Position numbers and translations under genes: made by a program. From NCBI GenBank assembly GCA_019359695.1, contig JAHHGV010000034.1:1-64000 (forward strand): DNA of 64,000 nucleotides, given 5' to 3'. The DNA is from Brasilonema angustatum HA4187-MV1. GTDB lineage: Bacteria; Cyanobacteriota; Cyanobacteriia; Cyanobacteriales; Nostocaceae. Below are positions 36,852-46,927 of the stretch, one piece after another; within the stretch, counting starts at the first letter, position 1, and each line of letters begins with the position of its first letter. The notes below the pieces were generated by a model that did no database searches, was not told the origin of the DNA, and worked only from the letters and a program-made list of their open reading frames with translations.

Positions 36852-37631
36852 CTATTTAATTCCTGTAACAGCATAAAAATTCCTAGTAAATAAGAATTCA
36901 TCTTCCTTGACTTGGTTAGTCAGAAATTCTAACCAAGCATCTGCTTGATCCGCAGGAAATCCTTCTGCAACAATCCAATTGCGAATCCGTTCAAAAAATG
37001 GACGATCAAAGTTGCGATCAATACGGACAGAAGCATCAACTTGAATATTTGTTAAACCTAGTTTCTTAAACATACTGGGCAACTTGCGCCCAATCCATCC
37101 ATCACTCCAATAATCAGCTGCCGCATTGAGAACCTTTCTAGTAAGCTGTTTTTCGCCCGGATATAGTACAGCAGTTTCAAAATCCTGATCCATGACAGCG
37201 ACCTTTCCTCCAGGTTTGGTCACTCTCACCATTTCTTTCAAGATATCTAGAGAGTTCGGCACATGAGCCAGAACAGTAGAAACATAGACTAAATCAAACG
37301 TGTCTGAAGGATAGGGTAATTGGCTGGCATCAGCTACCTGAATATGGAAGTCTGGAAAACGCTTAACAGCATTCGTAACTAGATATTCGTCAAGGTCAAC
37401 ACCATAAAAAGATGCCGAGGGTTCGCTCAGTTTCTGGCTACAAAAATTAAGTAAATGCCCTGTTCCACAACCGACATCCAGAATTTTGTTTGGCGTCAAA
37501 TCAGACAAAATACAACTAAAAAACCAAACAGAAATCGCTGTATAGTAAGTCTCAAATCGATCAAGTAAAACTTTTTCTCCAGCTATCCCTTGTTCCTCTG
37601 AAAGACCAGATATTCTAGCATCAAGAATCAT
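36852..37631 (-). CDS. Class I SAM-dependent methyltransferase
   Basis: A 259-residue methyltransferase of the UbiE/Methyltransf_11 kind. Motif I ILDVGCGTGHLLNFCSQKL, motif II region GVDLDEYLVTNAVKRF, post I ADASQLPYPSDTFDLVYVST, then MVRVTKPGGKVAVMDQDFE. It is the third gene of the aminodeoxychorismate cluster, 47 nt after the chorismate-mutase gene. O- or N-methylation of the product is likely, but the acceptor is unknown. Confidence 0.88.
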   Translation of the reverse strand: MILDARISGLSEEQGIAGEKVLLDRFETYYTAISVWFFSCILSDLTPNKILDVGCGTGHLLNFCSQKLSEPSASFYGVDLDEYLVTNAVKRFPDFHIQVADASQLPYPSDTFDLVYVSTVLAHVPNSLDILKEMVRVTKPGGKVAVMDQDFETAVLYPGEKQLTRKVLNAAADYWSDGWIGRKLPSMFKKLGLTNIQVDASVRIDRNFDRPFFERIRNWIVAEGFPADQADAWLEFLTNQVKEDEFLFTRNFYAVTGIK

Positions 37632-37678
37632 TACTTATTGTCCTTTCTATTATTTGCTATTTTTTGTAAACTTACGAC

Positions 37679-37957
37679 TTAATCTTTTTCAATTATGTCA
37701 TCTTCTATTCGACAACTTTCCTGAATAATTAAGTTGTACAGATTAAGCATAAAATCTTTACTGATTCTCTTCTGAAATCCTAAATCCTGACGACGCTTTT
37801 TAACTTCTTCCACTCGTCCCGGTTGCATCATAGGAATTTTTTCTTTTTTTTTGAAATGAGCGACTTCTCTACAAACTTCAAAGCGTTTACTTAACACTTC
37901 AATAATTTGCTCGTCTAAGGCATCGATTTCTTTTCTAAACTGTTCAAGTTGATTCAT
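37679..37957 (-). CDS. Chorismate mutase (AroQ fold), PapB-like
   Basis: A 92-residue AroQ helical protein. LEQFRKEIDALDEQIIEVLS then KRFEVCREVAHFKKKEKIPM place Arg8, Arg25 and Lys36-38 at the usual substrate-binding positions. The later D-x-x-R-E box of true chorismate mutases is replaced by QPGRVEE, keeping Arg48 only. Next to a PIKGT-type aminodeoxychorismate synthase, it could instead be a 4-amino-4-deoxychorismate mutase as PapB in p-aminophenylalanine pathways. That specificity is inference. Confidence 0.82.
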   Translation of the reverse strand: MNQLEQFRKEIDALDEQIIEVLSKRFEVCREVAHFKKKEKIPMMQPGRVEEVKKRRQDLGFQKRISKDFMLNLYNLIIQESCRIEDDIIEKD

Positions 37958-38165
37958 CGCTGATTTTTACCTTTATATAGGAATCCGGTTTGATTTGGTG
38001 AAATTGTTTATTAAGGGAGGGAATAGGGAACTGTTAACAGGGAACAGGAAAAAAGGCTCTTTAAGTGTACTGATTTTTTTAAGCGCAAAGCGCAGGCACT
38101 TTCACAAAAATCAAATATTAGTCCTATATATCATACACATTTCCATTCTCTTTTTCTCTCCTGAT

Positions 38166-40327
38166 TTACGTAGTTAGTTTTTCATAATTATCAGCAGTTG
38201 TTGTTTCTATTTCTAGAATAGAATACATATCTGGTTCAAACTTTCCCTGGATCGTCATTACCATAGTTTGGATTAAAGCTTTCGCTTTGAGTAGCGTTTC
38301 CTGAAACTCCATCTCAGGATTAGAAAGCGCGATAATTCCGCCACCGATACCAATGGAGGTTTGATGAGGAGTCAAAACAGCAGTCCGAATGACAATATTC
38401 AAATCAGCTGAACCATTCAAACCCAAAAAGCCGATAGCTCCGGAATACACCCCTCGCGCCTCTTGTTCTAAGCGATCAATAATTTGCATGGTGCGGATTT
38501 TGGGTGCGCCAGTCATCGATCCCCCTGGAAATGATGCCTGAATGCAATCCACCGCTTGTAAGTCTGATCGCAACTGCCCTCGTACCGTTGTTACTAACTG
38601 ATGTACTGTTGCATAGGTTTCTACATCCATTAATTTTGGTACGTAGACACTACCAACTTCACAGACTCGTCCCAAATCATTGCGTAACAAATCCACAATC
38701 ATCAGATTTTCAGCCCGATCTTTTTCGCTGTTGCGTAACTGTTCCCGTAGGACAAAATCTTCTTCTGGGGTTTTTCCTCGCGGTAGCGTTCCTTTTATGG
38801 GCTTAGTTTCTACCCATTTTTTTCGATCAATCTTGAGAAACCGTTCTGGAGATGAGCAGGCGATCGCAAAATCACCAAAGCGCAAAAATGCAGAGTAGGG
38901 AGCAGGATTGATTTGACGTAATGTGCGATAAAATGTCAATGGATCGGGAGTCGCATGGGTGTAAAGCTGATTCGTCAGGCAAACTTGATAGGTTTCTCCT
39001 TCGTGAATTTCGTCCAAGCATTGATGAATATTTTGGATGTAAGTCTGGTAAGTGCGATGCAAATAGAACTTAATTGGCTCTTGATTTCCCTGAGGTACCA
39101 TCGTTGGCAGAGGAGCAAGGGTTTCGAGTTGTTGTTGGATAGTTCAAACCAAGTTTCTACTTCTTGTGTTTGTCCTTTTTTGACTAATTGCAGCAAATAA
39201 AGACACTGTTCTTGATGATCGATAGCAATCATGCGATCGGCAAGTAAGAAAATAGCATCCGGTAAGGGGGACGAATGTACTAATTGCGCTCCGCACTCTG
39301 CCTTGAGTTCATAACCAAAATAGCCAACAAACCCACAGTTAAAATCAAAAGGTAGATCATCCGATTGACAACACCGATAGTCTATTTCCCGCTTTAGATA
39401 TTTAAAAATACTTTCACTGCGACGGATCACGGTATCTGATTGTGTGATCGTGAGTTCTTGCGTTTGGGTATAATAGCGTACCAATAGACTGTTTGCTCCA
39501 CTCCCATCGCCCATAAATGAAAAGCGAGATAAACCAGGTTCTACACGGCTACTATCTAACCAAAAAGCATTTGGTGCATCCCGAAACATCTGTACAAATA
39601 TTTGTTCTGTTTCTGGGCAAATATTTAACTTGCGTGTATACAGTTCAAACTTTTCAGACTGTTTTTGCTCAGGATTATTTATAGCAGAACTAACAGATCC
39701 ATATCCTGTAAAATACCGCTTTGCTGAACTTCTTGATAGTTTCTTCGTAAATTGTAGCGTTATATCTCTAAAGTTTTCGAGTAATTTTTGCCCATATTCT
39801 GTGCAGATAGACTCTGGGTGAAACTGCACACCCCAAAAGGGTAAATACCGATGACGCAATCCCATCACCAGCCCTGCTTCAGTCCAAGCAATCTTTTCTA
39901 AACACTCAGGTAGTTCATCAGCTACTAACAAAGAGTGATAACGCACTACTGAAAACTGATTGGGAATGCCTTGAAACAATTCAGAACCATTGTGAAAAAT
40001 TTTACTGAGTCTACCATGTCGAACTTCCGGGGCATGAATCACCCTACCACCATGTAAGTAGCCAAGTCCTTGATGTCCCAGACAAACTCCCAGCAAGGGC
40101 ATATTCACATTCTCAATTATCTGTCGGCAAACTCCAAAATCTGCCGATTTCTCTGGACGACCAGGCCCTGGAGAAATTACAATATTGTCAAATGCAATCT
40201 CTTTGATTTCATCCCACATCATCCGATCATTACGAATTACTAAAGGCAGTTCTCCATTTACTTCCCCAATCATTTGGTACAGATTAAAAGTATAAGAGTC
40301 ATAGTTATCAATAATTAATGTTCGCAT
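38166..40327 (-). pseudogene. Aminodeoxychorismate synthase, PabA-PabB fusion, one frameshift
   Basis: The N-terminal part (40327 to about 39140) is a class I glutamine amidotransferase with nucleophile Cys in GVCLGHQGLGYLHGG and the FHPES His-Glu pair, followed by the start of the chorismate-binding subunit. The second part (about 39137 to 38166) carries [10 protein letters not shown], the diagnostic PIKGT (Lys nucleophile of aminodeoxychorismate synthase; anthranilate synthases have PIAGT), [20 protein letters not shown] and [11 protein letters not shown]. The frame shifts at about 39137 in CCAACAACAAC, where one base is missing. All catalytic residues of both halves are intact, so the break is very recent, a sequencing error, or a translational frameshift. 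Confidence 0.85.
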
Positions 40328-41047: not shown

Positions 41048-42196
41048 ATGCTCTTAGGTTTCAAAACAGAACTAAAGCTCAACAACGTACAACGCACTGC
41101 ATTGATGAAGCATTGTGGAGTAGCACGCCATGCTTGGAATTGGGGACTTGGACTGACCAAACAGATTTTGGATCACAACAAAACTAATCCTGACTCCAAG
41201 ATTAAATTCCCTAGTGCTATAGACCTCCATAAGTGGTTAGTGGCACTGGTGAAATCTGAGCACGAGTGGTACTACGAAGTCAGCAAGTCCACTCCACAAC
41301 AGGCATTAATGGCGTTGCGTGAATCTTGGAAACGCTGTTTCAATAAGACTGCTGGCGTTCCTAAGTTCAAGAAGAAAGGTAGGCGTGACTCTTTCACACT
41401 TGAAGGTACAGTCAAAATCTTGGGCAACAATAAAATTCAAGTGCCTGTGATTGGAATTTTCAAAACTTATGAACGACTACCGCAGGTTAAGCCAAAGTCT
41501 GTTACCATCAGTCGTCAAGCTGATAGGTGGTTTATTAGTTTCCGGTTTGAAATCGAAACTCAAGAATCCAGCCATACAGACGTTGTAGGCGTTGACCTTG
41601 GTGTCAAAACTTTGGCGATCCTCTCAACTGGGGAGGTAGTAGAAGGAGCTAAGTCCTACAAAAAGTACGAGGCGAAACTATCCAGAATGCAGTGGTTGAA
41701 CCGCCATAAAGTCATCGGCTCAGCTAACTGGAAGAAAGCACAACTCAAAATTGCTAGGTTACATGCTCACATAGCCAACATCCGCAAAGATACATTACAT
41801 AAGCTAACAACACTGCTTGCCAAAAACCACGGCACAGTAGTAATTGAGGATTTGAACGTATCAGGAATGTTGGCAAACCACAAGCTAGCCAAAGCAATTG
41901 CGGACATGGGATTTTACGAGTTTCGACGCCAACTAACCTACAAGTGCGAGTTGTACGGCTCCAAGTTGGTTGTAGTTGACCGATGGTTTCCAAGTTCTAA
42001 GACATGCTCTAATTGTGGAACCAAGAAAGAAACACTTCACCTGAAAGAGCGAGTGTTTAAATGTGGTGAGCAGCGCCTTGCGGGGGTTCCCCCCGTTGTG
42101 GCGACTGCGAACCCGCAGGGTCACTGCGGTTTTGTCATTGACCGTGACTTGAATGCCGCAATCAACCTTAAGAATTTGTACGTATCCGGCAGTTAG
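41048..42196 (+). CDS. tnpB: TnpB RNA-guided nuclease, zinc ribbon interrupted by a repeat
   Basis: An IS1341/IS605-group TnpB, ancestor-like relative of Cas12. RuvC residues Asp183 (GVDLGVKTLA), Glu267 (VVIEDLNV) and Asp365/367 (IDRDLNAAINL) are intact, as is the N-terminal KTELKLNNVQRTALMKHCGV with the DNA-binding helices. The zinc ribbon should be CxxC...CxxC: C320-x2-C323 is normal, but C339 and C360 are 20 residues apart because about 18 residues (GEQRLAGVPPVVATANPQGH) are encoded by an in-frame palindromic repeat. No tnpA is adjacent. Activity is uncertain. The 3' end and following bases should contain the guide RNA. Confidence 0.88.
   Translation: MLLGFKTELKLNNVQRTALMKHCGVARHAWNWGLGLTKQILDHNKTNPDSKIKFPSAIDLHKWLVALVKSEHEWYYEVSKSTPQQALMALRESWKRCFNKTAGVPKFKKKGRRDSFTLEGTVKILGNNKIQVPVIGIFKTYERLPQVKPKSVTISRQADRWFISFRFEIETQESSHTDVVGVDLGVKTLAILSTGEVVEGAKSYKKYEAKLSRMQWLNRHKVIGSANWKKAQLKIARLHAHIANIRKDTLHKLTTLLAKNHGTVVIEDLNVSGMLANHKLAKAIADMGFYEFRRQLTYKCELYGSKLVVVDRWFPSSKTCSNCGTKKETLHLKERVFKCGEQRLAGVPPVVATANPQGHCGFVIDRDLNAAINLKNLYVSGS
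42065..42126 (+). repeat. Palindromic repeat inserted in frame inside tnpB
   Basis: CAGCGCCTTGCGGGGGTTCC followed by CCCCGTTG and a GCGAACCCGCAGGG palindrome. Removing it restores a C-x2-C zinc knuckle. A multiple-of-3 length keeps the frame open. Confidence 0.7.
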
Positions 42197-43458: not shown

Positions 43459-43635
43459 TTAACTTTCCAACACATTTAAACCTGCTTCCTTTTCTATTCT
43501 GTCTAAAGCCCTCTTCGCTCTCAAAACAACTCGCAAATAGGCTACTTGATTACTCCAAGCCAAACGAGGTAACAGAGGTGCTTGAGAGTCTACCTGAGTT
43601 TGGGAGTTAGTAATAGTTGTATTTTCTTCAGACAT
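43459..43635 (-). CDS. Small accessory protein of the radical SAM cluster (PlpY-like by position)
   Basis: 58 residues from the ATG at 43635: MSEENTTITNSQTQVDSQAP followed by LLPRLAWSNQVAYLRVVLRA and KRALDRIEKEAG, a single amphipathic helix with a basic face. The ATG lies 2 nt beyond the radical SAM stop, so it is translationally coupled. Spliceotide clusters pair the enzyme (PlpX) with a small partner (PlpY), and this gene has the right place and size. Sequence similarity to PlpY cannot be judged here. The open frame to 43692 overlaps the enzyme gene and is not the likely start. Confidence 0.6.
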   Translation of the reverse strand: MSEENTTITNSQTQVDSQAPLLPRLAWSNQVAYLRVVLRAKRALDRIEKEAGLNVLES

Positions 43636-43637
43636 GA

Positions 43638-44891
43638 TTAATGGGTTGTTAATGAAGGGACTGATAATTCTTGTTGCCAACTTTGTGACCATTGAATGCG
43701 ATCGCCACTAAACTGAAGTGGATCATTGACTGGCAAAGGAGCATCAATTGCTTCCTCAACCAGAGCAAACTCGCCGTTATCAAACGGGTTTCCCTCCGCC
43801 TTATGCTGGAGAAACACTCGCTCGCGAACACCACGTTTTGCTTGCGTTAAAGCACGGTGATGACAGTAAGGATTATTACCTCTTTTGTCAAAGAAAACGT
43901 GAGCAGTCCAAGAGCAACCACCACGACAGAGTTGAGCAAATTCACAAGTCTTACAGAAACCCCAAAGATGATCTGTTCCTTTAGGAGTATCAGCTCCGAG
44001 ATTAAATCGTAATTCCTCTGCCTCTTCAATGATTGTTCCCAGTGAGTGGTCACGGATGTTACCTCCGGTGTATGCTGAAGTCGGCAGTGAAGGACAACCT
44101 TTGATTGCACCATCGGCTTCAATGCCCAAAGTAGCCAGTCCGGCGTTGCATCCCTGCCAGAAAGCCCAAGCATGTCCTCCCCGCAGCAGTCGTTCGTAGG
44201 GACCGTAATAGCCGATATTATTTCCTGGCTGCACCTGCACTCCTTCTTCCTGGGCGCGTTGAGCAACACGAGCTATCATTGGATAGACATCCAGCAGTTC
44301 ATATGGTTGCAGCAGAATGTCACTATTATCCGCTGCATTGCCCATTGGGACTGTTAACTGAATCTGCCAAGCAAAAATACCAGCATCACGGATACGCTCA
44401 TAGATTTGGGGAAATTCCGGTGCAGATAAGCGATTGATTTGAGTGTTGCAGCCAAAGATAATACCAGCTTCCTTAAGATGGCTCATGGTCTTAAACGCCC
44501 ATTCCCAAGAGCCTTTTCTACCCCTGAGGCGATCGTGAGTCGCTTCTAAGCCATCAACCGAAACAGACACTACACTAATTCCAGCTTCCTTCATCCGGCG
44601 TGCAGTATCTAAGGTGATACCATAACCACCAGTCGTCATGCCACAACGCATTCCAGCATTGGTAATAGCAGAGGCAATTTCCAACCAATCAGGACGCAGA
44701 AAAGCCTCACCCCCAATTATGGTGACTTCTGTAATCCCGACTTCCGCCATTTGTTTGACTAAATCAAGGGCTTCTTCTGTAGAAAGTTCTTTCGCCCTTG
44801 TGTGCCCTGCACGAGAACCGCAATGCTGACAAGCTAAATTGCACTTCAGCGTTATTTCCCAAACCGCATAACTCACTCTGCGATAAGTCAT
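43638..44891 (-). CDS. Radical SAM/SPASM peptide-modifying enzyme, splicease-like
   Basis: Radical SAM enzyme with the [4Fe-4S] motif CNLACQHC (Cys17, Cys21, Cys24 from ATG 44891), GGEAFLRPDW, and a SPASM/twitch region with many cysteines: FWQGCNAGLATLGIEADGAI, KGCPSLP, GFCKTCEFAQLCRGGCSW, NPYCHH. Its neighbours are three Nif11-type precursors with Leu/Met-Tyr-Gly motifs, the context of PlpX splicease, which removes tyramine from an X-Tyr-Gly site to leave an alpha-keto-beta-amino acid. A TTG at 44918 is in frame; ATG at 44891 has GAGG at 9 nt. Enzyme class is certain; the splicease role is strong inference. Confidence 0.85.
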   Translation of the reverse strand: MTYRRVSYAVWEITLKCNLACQHCGSRAGHTRAKELSTEEALDLVKQMAEVGITEVTIIGGEAFLRPDWLEIASAITNAGMRCGMTTGGYGITLDTARRMKEAGISVVSVSVDGLEATHDRLRGRKGSWEWAFKTMSHLKEAGIIFGCNTQINRLSAPEFPQIYERIRDAGIFAWQIQLTVPMGNAADNSDILLQPYELLDVYPMIARVAQRAQEEGVQVQPGNNIGYYGPYERLLRGGHAWAFWQGCNAGLATLGIEADGAIKGCPSLPTSAYTGGNIRDHSLGTIIEEAEELRFNLGADTPKGTDHLWGFCKTCEFAQLCRGGCSWTAHVFFDKRGNNPYCHHRALTQAKRGVRERVFLQHKAEGNPFDNGEFALVEEAIDAPLPVNDPLQFSGDRIQWSQSWQQELSVPSLTTH

Positions 44892-44924
44892 TGAAATACC
44901 CTCAGCTAATTTGTTCAAATAGGG

Positions 44925-44975
44925 ACAGACTTATGCATCCGTCCCAAAAAACACAAGCTTATTGCTCAAGCTTTT
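44925..44975 (-). terminator. Double-hairpin terminator of precursor 1
   Basis: On the minus strand AAGCTT-N7-AAGCTT is followed by GTGTTTTTT, then GGGACGGA pairs with TCTGTCCC. The same AAGCTT hairpin and T-run ends each of the three precursor genes (also about 45783-45810 and 46515-46545). Confidence 0.7.
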
Positions 44976-45356
44976 TTAGAGTTCTTCTTTCGATATGACA
45001 ACTCCATACATTGGCTGATAAATGGGTGGCTTAATAGGTGGCCACTTAATGGGCTTAGTAGGTGGCCACTTGGTGGGTGGTTCAGAAATAATCACTCCAT
45101 ACAGTGGCTGTGCCATAATTCCACCAAAAACAGTTGCCAATTCTTTTTCGTCTAAATCTGCCAGTTCGTCCTCATCAGCATTTAATTCCAGCAGTTGGAC
45201 TGTATATTCTTGCAATTCTTCTTGGGTGAAATCATAGCCAGCACTTTTGACCGTTTGGCTACATTCATCTTTACTGTTAACCCCTTGAATTTGGGTACGA
45301 AAAGCTTCGTCAGTTCCTATTCTTTGGTAAAATGCTTTGACGTCTTCTAGAGACAT
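44976..45356 (-). CDS. Nif11-type RiPP precursor 1 (two X-Tyr-Gly sites)
   Basis: 126 residues. The leader (1-79) is Nif11-like: MSLEDVKAFYQRIGTDEAFR, CSQTVKSAGYDFTQEEL, and DEKELATVFGG with a double-glycine cut at 78-79. The core (80-126) has Leu85-Tyr86-Gly87 and Met116-Tyr117-Gly118, separated by a Pro/Lys/Trp-rich spacer (KWPPTKPIKWPPIKPP). X-Tyr-Gly is the site used by spliceases. ATG at 45356 has GGAG upstream. It lies 84 nt before the radical SAM ATG and is probably transcribed with it in part. Confidence 0.85.
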   Translation of the reverse strand: MSLEDVKAFYQRIGTDEAFRTQIQGVNSKDECSQTVKSAGYDFTQEELQEYTVQLLELNADEDELADLDEKELATVFGGIMAQPLYGVIISEPPTKWPPTKPIKWPPIKPPIYQPMYGVVISKEEL

Positions 45357-45660
45357 AATTTCTCCTGGGATTACTTAAATTACAGCTAGTGGCATTGGGC
45401 AAAATAGAGCTACGCTCATAACATCTGGTTTTGAGGTTTAAAAAACTCAACAGATATTTTTGCCGACCTGTACTAGTAGTTTTGCTTAAACAAGCGTCAG
45501 CTTTACTACTGCATCAATTTTTCTTTATTGGTTATATAAAGTACTGGAGCAATAGAATTACTGACAGAGTAATCTTCTCACCTAAATAGTTTCAATTCAA
45601 AATGTCTTAACGATTTTTCAATTTTTGCCAGACGAAGGGAGGAGTTAATATCAAGCAAAA
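45357..45660. repeat. Upstream region of precursor 1, duplicated
   Basis: About 300 bp that match 46928-47225 closely (TAGTTTTGCTTAAACAAGCG, TTTCAATTCAAAATGTCTTA). It probably carries the promoter of each precursor gene. 46180-46440 is a third, more diverged copy. Confidence 0.8.
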
Positions 45661-45819
45661 TGTTACATATTAGGCTTGATATAACCCGCTGAGCGCATTT
45701 CCGATAGGACATAGGGACGAGAGGGAGGGAAGCAGTCCAAACAATTAGTGTCTAAACGAACCCCGCCCTGCATCGATCCCAAAAAACACAAGCTTATTGT
45801 TCAAGCTTCCTTTAAATGA
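45661..45819. other. Spacer with GATAGGACATAGGGACGAGA repeat
   Basis: The patch at about 45703-45725 recurs at about 47336-47360, upstream of the precursor block. No gene is seen. Confidence 0.55.
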
Positions 45820-46179
45820 TTATTCTGGCGATCGCATTACAACACCATATAAAGGCTGAGGTTCCGGTGGTTTCATTACAACACCATATAGAGGCTGAGG
45901 TTCCGGTTGAACAATAACTCCATACATCGGGTGTACAGTTGCCCCAGCAAAAATAGTTGCCAATTCTTTTTCGTCTAACTCTGCCAGTTTGTCCTCATCA
46001 GCACTTAACTCTAACAGATCGGCTGTATATTCTTCAAATTCTTCTTGGGTGAAATCATACCCAGCACTTTTGACAGTTTGGCTACATTCATCCTTACTCT
46101 TAACTTCTTGAACTTGAGTACGAAAAGCTTCGTCAGTTGCCAGTCTTTCGTAAAATGCTTTGACGTTTTCTAGAGACAT
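45820..46179 (-). CDS. Nif11-type RiPP precursor 2 (three X-Tyr-Gly sites)
   Basis: 119 residues. Leader nearly identical to precursors 1 and 3 (MSLENVKAFYERLATDEAFR, DEKELATIFAGA) but the double glycine is FAG-A. The core is a different tandem array: Met85-Tyr86-Gly87, Leu97-Tyr98-Gly99 and Leu110-Tyr111-Gly112, spaced by PEPQPLYGVVMKPPEPQPL-type repeats of 12-13 residues. If each site is processed, three beta-amino acids would result. The changed cleavage site may alter leader removal. Confidence 0.85.
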   Translation of the reverse strand: MSLENVKAFYERLATDEAFRTQVQEVKSKDECSQTVKSAGYDFTQEEFEEYTADLLELSADEDKLAELDEKELATIFAGATVHPMYGVIVQPEPQPLYGVVMKPPEPQPLYGVVMRSPE

Positions 46180-46452
46180 AATTCCTCTTAGGATGAGTTA
46201 AATACAACCAGTGCGATTAGACAACCATGCTGCAATAAAATATTTCTGCATTTCTGCCCTACTGCACTAATAGTTTTGCTTAACCAGCCATCAGTTTTTC
46301 CACTGCATCAATTATTCTCTAATTATTCAGTGTTTTTACTTAGCCAGGATAATCACTGGTTAACGATTATCTCACCGATACAATTTCAATTCAAAATCTC
46401 TTAATTATTTTTTAAATTTTGCCTTTTGCAAATAAGCTAATATCAAGCAAAA
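46180..46452. repeat. Upstream region of precursor 2, diverged copy
   Basis: Shares TAGTTTTGCTTAACCAGCCA, TCTCACC and TTTCAATTCAAAATCTCTTA with the two other precursor upstream regions. No gene is seen. Confidence 0.65.
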
Positions 46453-46500
46453 TGCTAGGTGATTGAAATATCCTCAGCTAATTTGTTCAAATAGGGACGG
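46453..46500 (-). pseudogene. Stub of the radical SAM gene 5' end
   Basis: TTGAACAAATTAGCTGAGGA followed by TATTTCAATCA matches the first codons of the radical SAM gene (44918-44888: TTGAACAAATTAGCTGAGGG and so on). It lies downstream of precursor 3 exactly as the real gene lies downstream of precursor 1. The duplication unit therefore included a precursor and the beginning of the enzyme gene. Confidence 0.75.
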
Positions 46501-46549
46501 ATGCAGGTAAGTCCGTCCCAAAAAACACAAGCTTATTGCTCAAGCTTCC

Positions 46550-46927
46550 TTAGAGTTCTTCTTTCGATACGACAACTCCATACATTGGCTGATAAATGGG
46601 CGGCTTAGTGGGTGGCCACTTAATGGGCTTAGTAGGTGGCAACTTAGTGGGTGGTTCATAAATGATTCCATACAGTGGCTGTGCCATAATTCCACCAAAA
46701 ACAGTTGCCAATTCTTTTTCGTCTAAATCTGCCAGTTCGTCCTCATCAGCACTTAACTCCAAAAGTTCGGCTGTATATTCTTTTAACTCTTCTTGGGTGA
46801 AGTCATAGCCAGCACTTTTGACCGTTTGGCTACATTCATCTTTACTATTAACCCCTTGAATTTGGGTACGAAAAGCTTCGTCGCTTCCTAGTCTTTCGTA
46901 GAATGCTTGGACGTCTTCTAGAGACAT
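46550..46927 (-). CDS. Nif11-type RiPP precursor 3 (two X-Tyr-Gly sites)
   Basis: 125 residues from ATG 46927 (GGAGAAATTATG). Leader as in precursor 1 with ELATVFGG. The core has Leu85-Tyr86-Gly87 and Met115-Tyr116-Gly117, with the spacer KLPPTKPIKWPPTKPP. Compared with precursor 1, the core differs at about six residues (IIYEP for VIISEP, Leu for Trp, Thr for Ile, Val for Ile), so the pair arose by recent duplication and now diversify in the core. The open frame continues upstream to 47044 but that part is the duplicated leader DNA. Confidence 0.85.
   Translation of the reverse strand: MSLEDVQAFYERLGSDEAFRTQIQGVNSKDECSQTVKSAGYDFTQEELKEYTAELLELSADEDELADLDEKELATVFGGIMAQPLYGIIYEPPTKLPPTKPIKWPPTKPPIYQPMYGVVVSKEEL

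Follow-up and report, generated by a model that had tools for sequence, protein, structure and literature searches.

A probable PlpXY-type spliceotide cluster with seven X-Tyr-Gly sites in Brasilonema angustatum

A five-gene cluster in Brasilonema angustatum HA4187-MV1 (contig JAHHGV010000034.1) is, with little room for doubt, a cyanobacterial spliceotide cluster of the PlpXY type. It occupies positions 43459-46927 of the 64,000-nucleotide stretch that we analysed (the window) and comprises three precursor genes with Nif11 leaders, a gene for a radical SAM/SPASM enzyme homologous to the splicease PlpX, and a gene for a small PlpY-like partner protein. The assignment is supported by an enzyme family (TIGR04103) shared with a reference locus, 75% identity to the reference enzyme, a homologous partner, the type of leader, and cores carrying X-Tyr-Gly. 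Gene content, family membership, the number and conservation of the motifs, and homology to the reference locus were observed directly. The cluster is a well-preserved, ordinary member of a known family, and the known picture of that family is unchanged.

All genes lie on the minus strand and run, from upstream to downstream, as precursors A1 (46550-46927, 125 amino acids), A2 (45820-46179, 119 amino acids) and A3 (44976-45356, 126 amino acids), the enzyme, and the 58-residue partner. An initial annotation of the window had called all five, and each was found in place. The enzyme gene (43638-44891, stop included) encodes 417 amino acids; translation most likely begins at the ATG at 44891, which GAGGG precedes by a few bases, rather than at an upstream TTG. 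The partner gene (43459-43635, stop included) follows directly, its ATG at 43635 lying 2 nt past the enzyme stop codon.

The enzyme scored 828.2 bits against TIGR04103 (NCBIfam nif11-class peptide radical SAM maturase 3; cut-off 725), a family whose InterPro entry we take to be IPR026482. A CxxxCxxC motif and seven C-terminal cysteines are invariant across the enzyme alignment (17 homologues). Four further matches to TIGR04103 in the genome were all weak (best 43.6 bits), and a comparison with solved structures gave only distant matches, the best being SkfB at 83 bits. According to the available text of PMC11002830, PlpX belongs to SPASM subclass IPR026482 and acts with a partner, PlpY, that is called a truncated RRE; TIGR04103 was not mentioned by name in the literature searched.

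As a reference we used a TIGR04103 enzyme from a genome in our order-level sample (G469; 7.4 Mb, 10 contigs). Its locus, L149, has two Nif11 precursors, one with the end LFPIRPLYGLPI and the other with AVAAMYGVVFPW... as the core that follows its GG. The accessible portion of PMC10533398 gives PLFPIRPGYGLPI, GGPIRPLYGLPI and GAVAAGYGVVFPG as splice tags, with an engineered GYG, and mentions a 10-residue minimal PlpA2 core, PlpA3-M5G and Pleurocapsa sp. PCC 7319. We assigned the tags to PlpA2 and PlpA3 respectively. PIRPLYGLPI is ten residues long and AVAAMYG has Met at position 5, and on these grounds L149 was taken as the plp locus, presumably that of Pleurocapsa PCC 7319. Its enzyme scores 824 bits on TIGR04103 and is identical to the window enzyme at 308/413 positions (75%).

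Scanning the genome collection gave 363 relatives, and the best 80 (79 loci) were examined, so the locus counts reported here describe the nearest relatives. A family profile built from the window partner and its relatives matched the open reading frame (ORF) directly after the L149 enzyme (4e-12), and the pairwise comparison gave 4e-08. That ORF is probably PlpY, given where it lies and that PlpX and PlpY carry consecutive accession numbers in the portion of PMC11002830 available. Among 80 places (79 loci and the window), sixty-four had a partner-like ORF whose start lies at most 40 nt before or 150 nt after the enzyme end. A motif scan of the remaining sixteen placed the partner at thirteen more, all downstream (L052, L055, L061, L066, L072, L077, L085, L086, L087, L108, L112, L113 and L123). 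Neither scan found it at L095, L097 or L111, the sequence of L111 ending there. The initial annotation had likened the two proteins to PlpX and PlpY, and both comparisons hold: no non-splicease SPASM family is the enzyme's best match, and the 58-residue protein has a homologue in the same position in the reference.

All three precursors match the Nif11 leader family TIGR03798 (A3 57.5, A2 57.1 and A1 54.7 bits; cut-off 32.3), and also PF07862. The cores, IMAQPLYGIIYEPPTKLPPTKPIKWPPTKPPIYQPMYGVVVSKEEL, ATVHPMYGVIVQPEPQPLYGVVMKPPEPQPLYGVVMRSPE and IMAQPLYGVIISEPPTKWPPTKPIKWPPIKPPIYQPMYGVVISKEEL, contain two, three and two sites respectively: PLYGII and PMYGVV in A1; PMYGVI, PLYGVV and PLYGVV in A2; PLYGVI and PMYGVV in A3. 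Every one of the seven is MYG or LYG. Shuffling the core residues reached seven [LM]YG in 0/20000 trials (mean 0.06), and 0.03 would be expected in 133 amino acids at the six-frame rate of the window. These results confirm the counts of two, three and two in the initial annotation. A GTG-extended ORF for A1 would have 164 amino acids and one additional YG upstream of the ATG at 46927; with that ATG as the start, the annotated count for A1 is correct. The A2 leader ends in IFAG (45943-45954, minus strand), where its counterpart in Brasilonema sp. CT11 has IFGG, an altered GG-type cleavage site.

Minus-strand stretches 47226-46456 (A1 with flanks) and 45653-44884 (A3 with flanks, to the enzyme start) align over 776 columns with 89.3% identity, so A1 and A3, together with their flanks, are the two copies of a tandem duplication. 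The CT11 locus (L046, NZ_JABXYX010000036.1) shares the order of precursors, enzyme and partner, as well as the neighbouring Trp/Tyr permease and an ABC permease, but only two precursors (A1 and A2) with five sites were found there, against three with seven sites in the window. A3 was either gained in the window or lost in CT11. The column comparisons between precursors all involve small counts. Between A2 and its CT11 counterpart, changes fall in 0/18 motif columns, 7/22 other core columns and 8/79 leader columns, which favours the spliceotide reading. A1 and its counterpart have identical cores and differ in 3/79 leader columns, and A1 and A3 differ in 1/12 motif columns (a gap), 4/35 other core columns and 8/79 leader columns. 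Compared with its close relatives, the cluster suggests gain or loss of precursors through duplication, with the sites retained.

By enzyme identity (best segment), the nearest relatives are Brasilonema sp. CT11 (99%), B. bromeliae SPC951 (97%) and Scytonema tolypothrichoides VB-61278 (96%), which puts the window close to Brasilonema, a genus named in none of the spliceotide, Nif11 or splicease papers listed by the literature search. In the order-level sample, the enzyme is found at E<=1e-60 in 70/388 genomes and over the cut-off in 61/388; in the class-level sample, which overlaps the first in genomes, the numbers are 18/388 and 16/388. None of fourteen named control genomes has an enzyme over the cut-off. 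The precursor profile, made from seven leaders of this family (two from the window), gave 125 matches outside the window; three of these lacked a recognisable leader end and were set aside, which left 122 cores. No core was counted in five of the 79 loci (L073, L075, L077, L085 and L086); in L075, L085 and L086 no more than about 1 kb separates the enzyme from the contig end upstream.

Counting sites with any residue before YG, five of the 122 cores have none, forty-eight have one, sixty have two, eight have three and one has four. At least two sites are therefore present in 69/122 cores, and of the 74 loci with a counted core, 60 include a multi-site core. Among the 196 sites in these relatives, X is Leu in ninety-two and Met in fifty-one, Pro precedes X in 124, and Val follows YG in 130. 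A spacer motif (WPP, KWPP, PPTK or PKP) occurs in 54/69 multi-site cores. Because multi-site cores and Pro/Trp/Lys spacers are common among the relatives, the features that the initial annotation thought distinctive are typical, and its claim that they set the cluster apart does not hold. Its spliceotide interpretation stands in the family assignment, where enzyme, partner, leaders and cores all match the reference.

We also considered a separate enzyme lineage for multi-site cores and rejected it, as multi-site and single-site labels are mixed on the 81-row enzyme tree. The labels, which follow a slightly looser site rule (62/74 multi-site loci instead of 60/74), require at least nine changes, five of them forced by well-supported branches. 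They are nonetheless more clustered than shuffled labels (mean 12.2 changes; 4/500 as low). L113 was unusable in the tree (a frame change, with 38 stops when read straight), L120 was cut at one stop, and five rows were unlabelled. In Brasilonema sp. UFV-L1 (L114) and Tolypothrix campylonemoides (L110) the system takes a form closer to the L149 enzyme: no core there holds more than one site, and the neighbouring genes resemble those of plp (sensor-like and ParA-like, as judged by eye).

Several points weigh against reading the cluster as a spliceotide system. The reaction itself, how many sites are spliced, the removal of the leader, export and biological role are all inferred. The reference locus was itself identified by inference, and the partner's match to the reference partner, as aligned, is short (10/33 identical). 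Although PlpY is described as a truncated RRE, the window partner has no NCBIfam match and no Pfam match at E<=1; an RRE model was tried without a match. None of fourteen scanned partner members, the L149 partner among them, matches an RRE model, the only hits being weak ones to XLF_CC (0.029) and Int_N (0.12) in one member each; as the reference partner lacks a match too, sequence profiles say little on whether the partner is an RRE. The window partner also has no match at E<=1 among solved structures. The genome has thirteen C39 family matches, none on the contig of the cluster, and the comparisons of A1 with CT11 and with A3 say little about selection on the motifs.

Alternative explanations concern the enzyme and the fate of its substrates. 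The enzyme could come from a neighbouring SPASM maturase family (GDL-motif TIGR03913, heme, sactipeptide or ranthipeptide) and modify the cores in some other way, since TIGR03913 is its second-best family at 417 bits. That score is below the family's own cut-off of 592, whereas the TIGR04103 score is 103 bits over its cut-off, and the L149 enzyme has the same two best families. Thioether maturases require cysteine in the core, and cysteine is absent from all three cores. We consider this explanation exceedingly improbable, and other SPASM families were ruled out for the enzyme.

Another question is whether all seven sites are spliced. Only some of them, for example one preferred site per core, might be processed, with the others acting as recognition or spacer elements. 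Among the tags placed in FtsZ, PlpXY accepted only two constructs, according to the available part of PMC10533398, and single-site and multi-site cores coexist within the same loci. Partial splicing is possible, though we lean towards doubting it. We think it distinctly unlikely that one precursor is decaying and unprocessed, either A2 with its AG leader end or the extra copy A3. The IFAG end of A2 and the recovery of only A1 and A2 from CT11 would fit such decay, but the three ORFs are intact, with leaders of 54.7 to 57.5 bits and all sites retained, and the portion of PMC10533398 at hand reports that PlpXY splicing works without a leader.

If the cluster acts as a spliceotide system, three Nif11-leader precursors would be made, and part of a tyrosine would be excised from their backbones at the seven sites. 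A fully processed A1 or A3 would carry two ketoamides and a fully processed A2 three. Leader cleavage would follow at the GG-type site, and the protease may be a C39 exporter whose gene lies elsewhere in the genome; in the accessible text of PMC10885120, C39 exporters serve spliceotides among other products, though not universally. The products would most likely be protease inhibitors, as spliceotide products are described in the available parts of PMC11117315 and PMC10373908. A 2022 review, as far as its available text goes, states that a natural spliceotide had yet to be isolated and that the role was unknown (PMC8868522). A bolder and rather unlikely version has every site spliced, yielding multivalent peptides in which two or three ketoamides on stiff Pro-rich linkers block several protease active sites simultaneously, with new valencies varied by tandem duplication of precursors within the genus. 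Should splicing proceed as predicted, the cluster would provide short P-[LM]-Y-G-[VI]-[VI] cores, each naturally bearing two or three sites, with which to ask whether the splicease is processive and to make multi-ketoamide peptides.

Similar hairpins (GGGACGGA...TCCGTCCC type) follow A3 (44892-44978, z -3.0) and A1 (46460-46552, z -1.9) on the minus strand, and the stretch in front of the enzyme is also repeated in the copy after A1. The stretch between A3 and the enzyme (44892-44975, minus strand) contains a 9-bp hairpin, and 44892-44978 folds at -24.3 kcal/mol. That it sets the ratio of precursor to enzyme is only a guess. Intrinsic terminators between the precursors and the enzyme were considered and rejected, as none matched the consensus; the whole region has one terminator match, against a shuffle average of 3.6.

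Upstream of the cluster, the first large gene encodes a Trp/Tyr permease family protein (PF03222; 47397-48713, minus strand). A functional link is tempting, given that tyrosine-derived material would be excised, but was rejected: the permease is probably unrelated, as it occurs at only 3/79 loci, all nearest relatives, in a count where some loci are shorter than 6 kb on a side. On the other side, the scan identified a glutamine amidotransferase/anthranilate-synthase-like protein (38975-40327, minus strand). By eye, a chorismate-binding-type ORF (38166-39101) overlaps it in another frame, and a short chorismate-mutase-like ORF (37679-37957) and a methyltransferase-like ORF (36852-37631) are also present. 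The region 36852-40327 (minus strand) resembles an aminochorismate pathway in which one gene is broken or split. An OrfB_IS605/TnpB-like transposase protein with a Cas12f1-like TNB domain lies at 41048-42196 on the plus strand.

Compared with plp, the founding spliceotide system, as represented by L149, the window shares a small partner just downstream of the enzyme, Nif11 leaders, and LYG and MYG core sites. PlpXY acts at MYG and LYG with a mass loss of 135.0757 Da, as given in the accessible text of PMC10533398. The two Nif11 precursors of L149 have one site each, whereas those of the window have two, three and two. The neighbours of L149 are C39-exporter-like, sensor-like and ParA-like genes (named by eye); in the window the sensor-like and ParA-like genes have no match, and the exporter is matched only partially, at two places some 12 kb and 5 kb away. 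The plp cluster also includes an epimerase, PlpD, in the portion of PMC11002830 available. The window's total of seven sites ties the largest totals among the 74 loci, which are reached differently: UBA11372 (L121) has seven sites from two precursors and Hyella (L096) seven from seven single-site precursors, against three precursors here. The predicted multi-site loci of Nostoc, Microseira, Moorena and other cyanobacteria have two to four XYG per core and many spacers of the Pro/Trp/Lys type, and differ from the window in precursor numbers and spacers.

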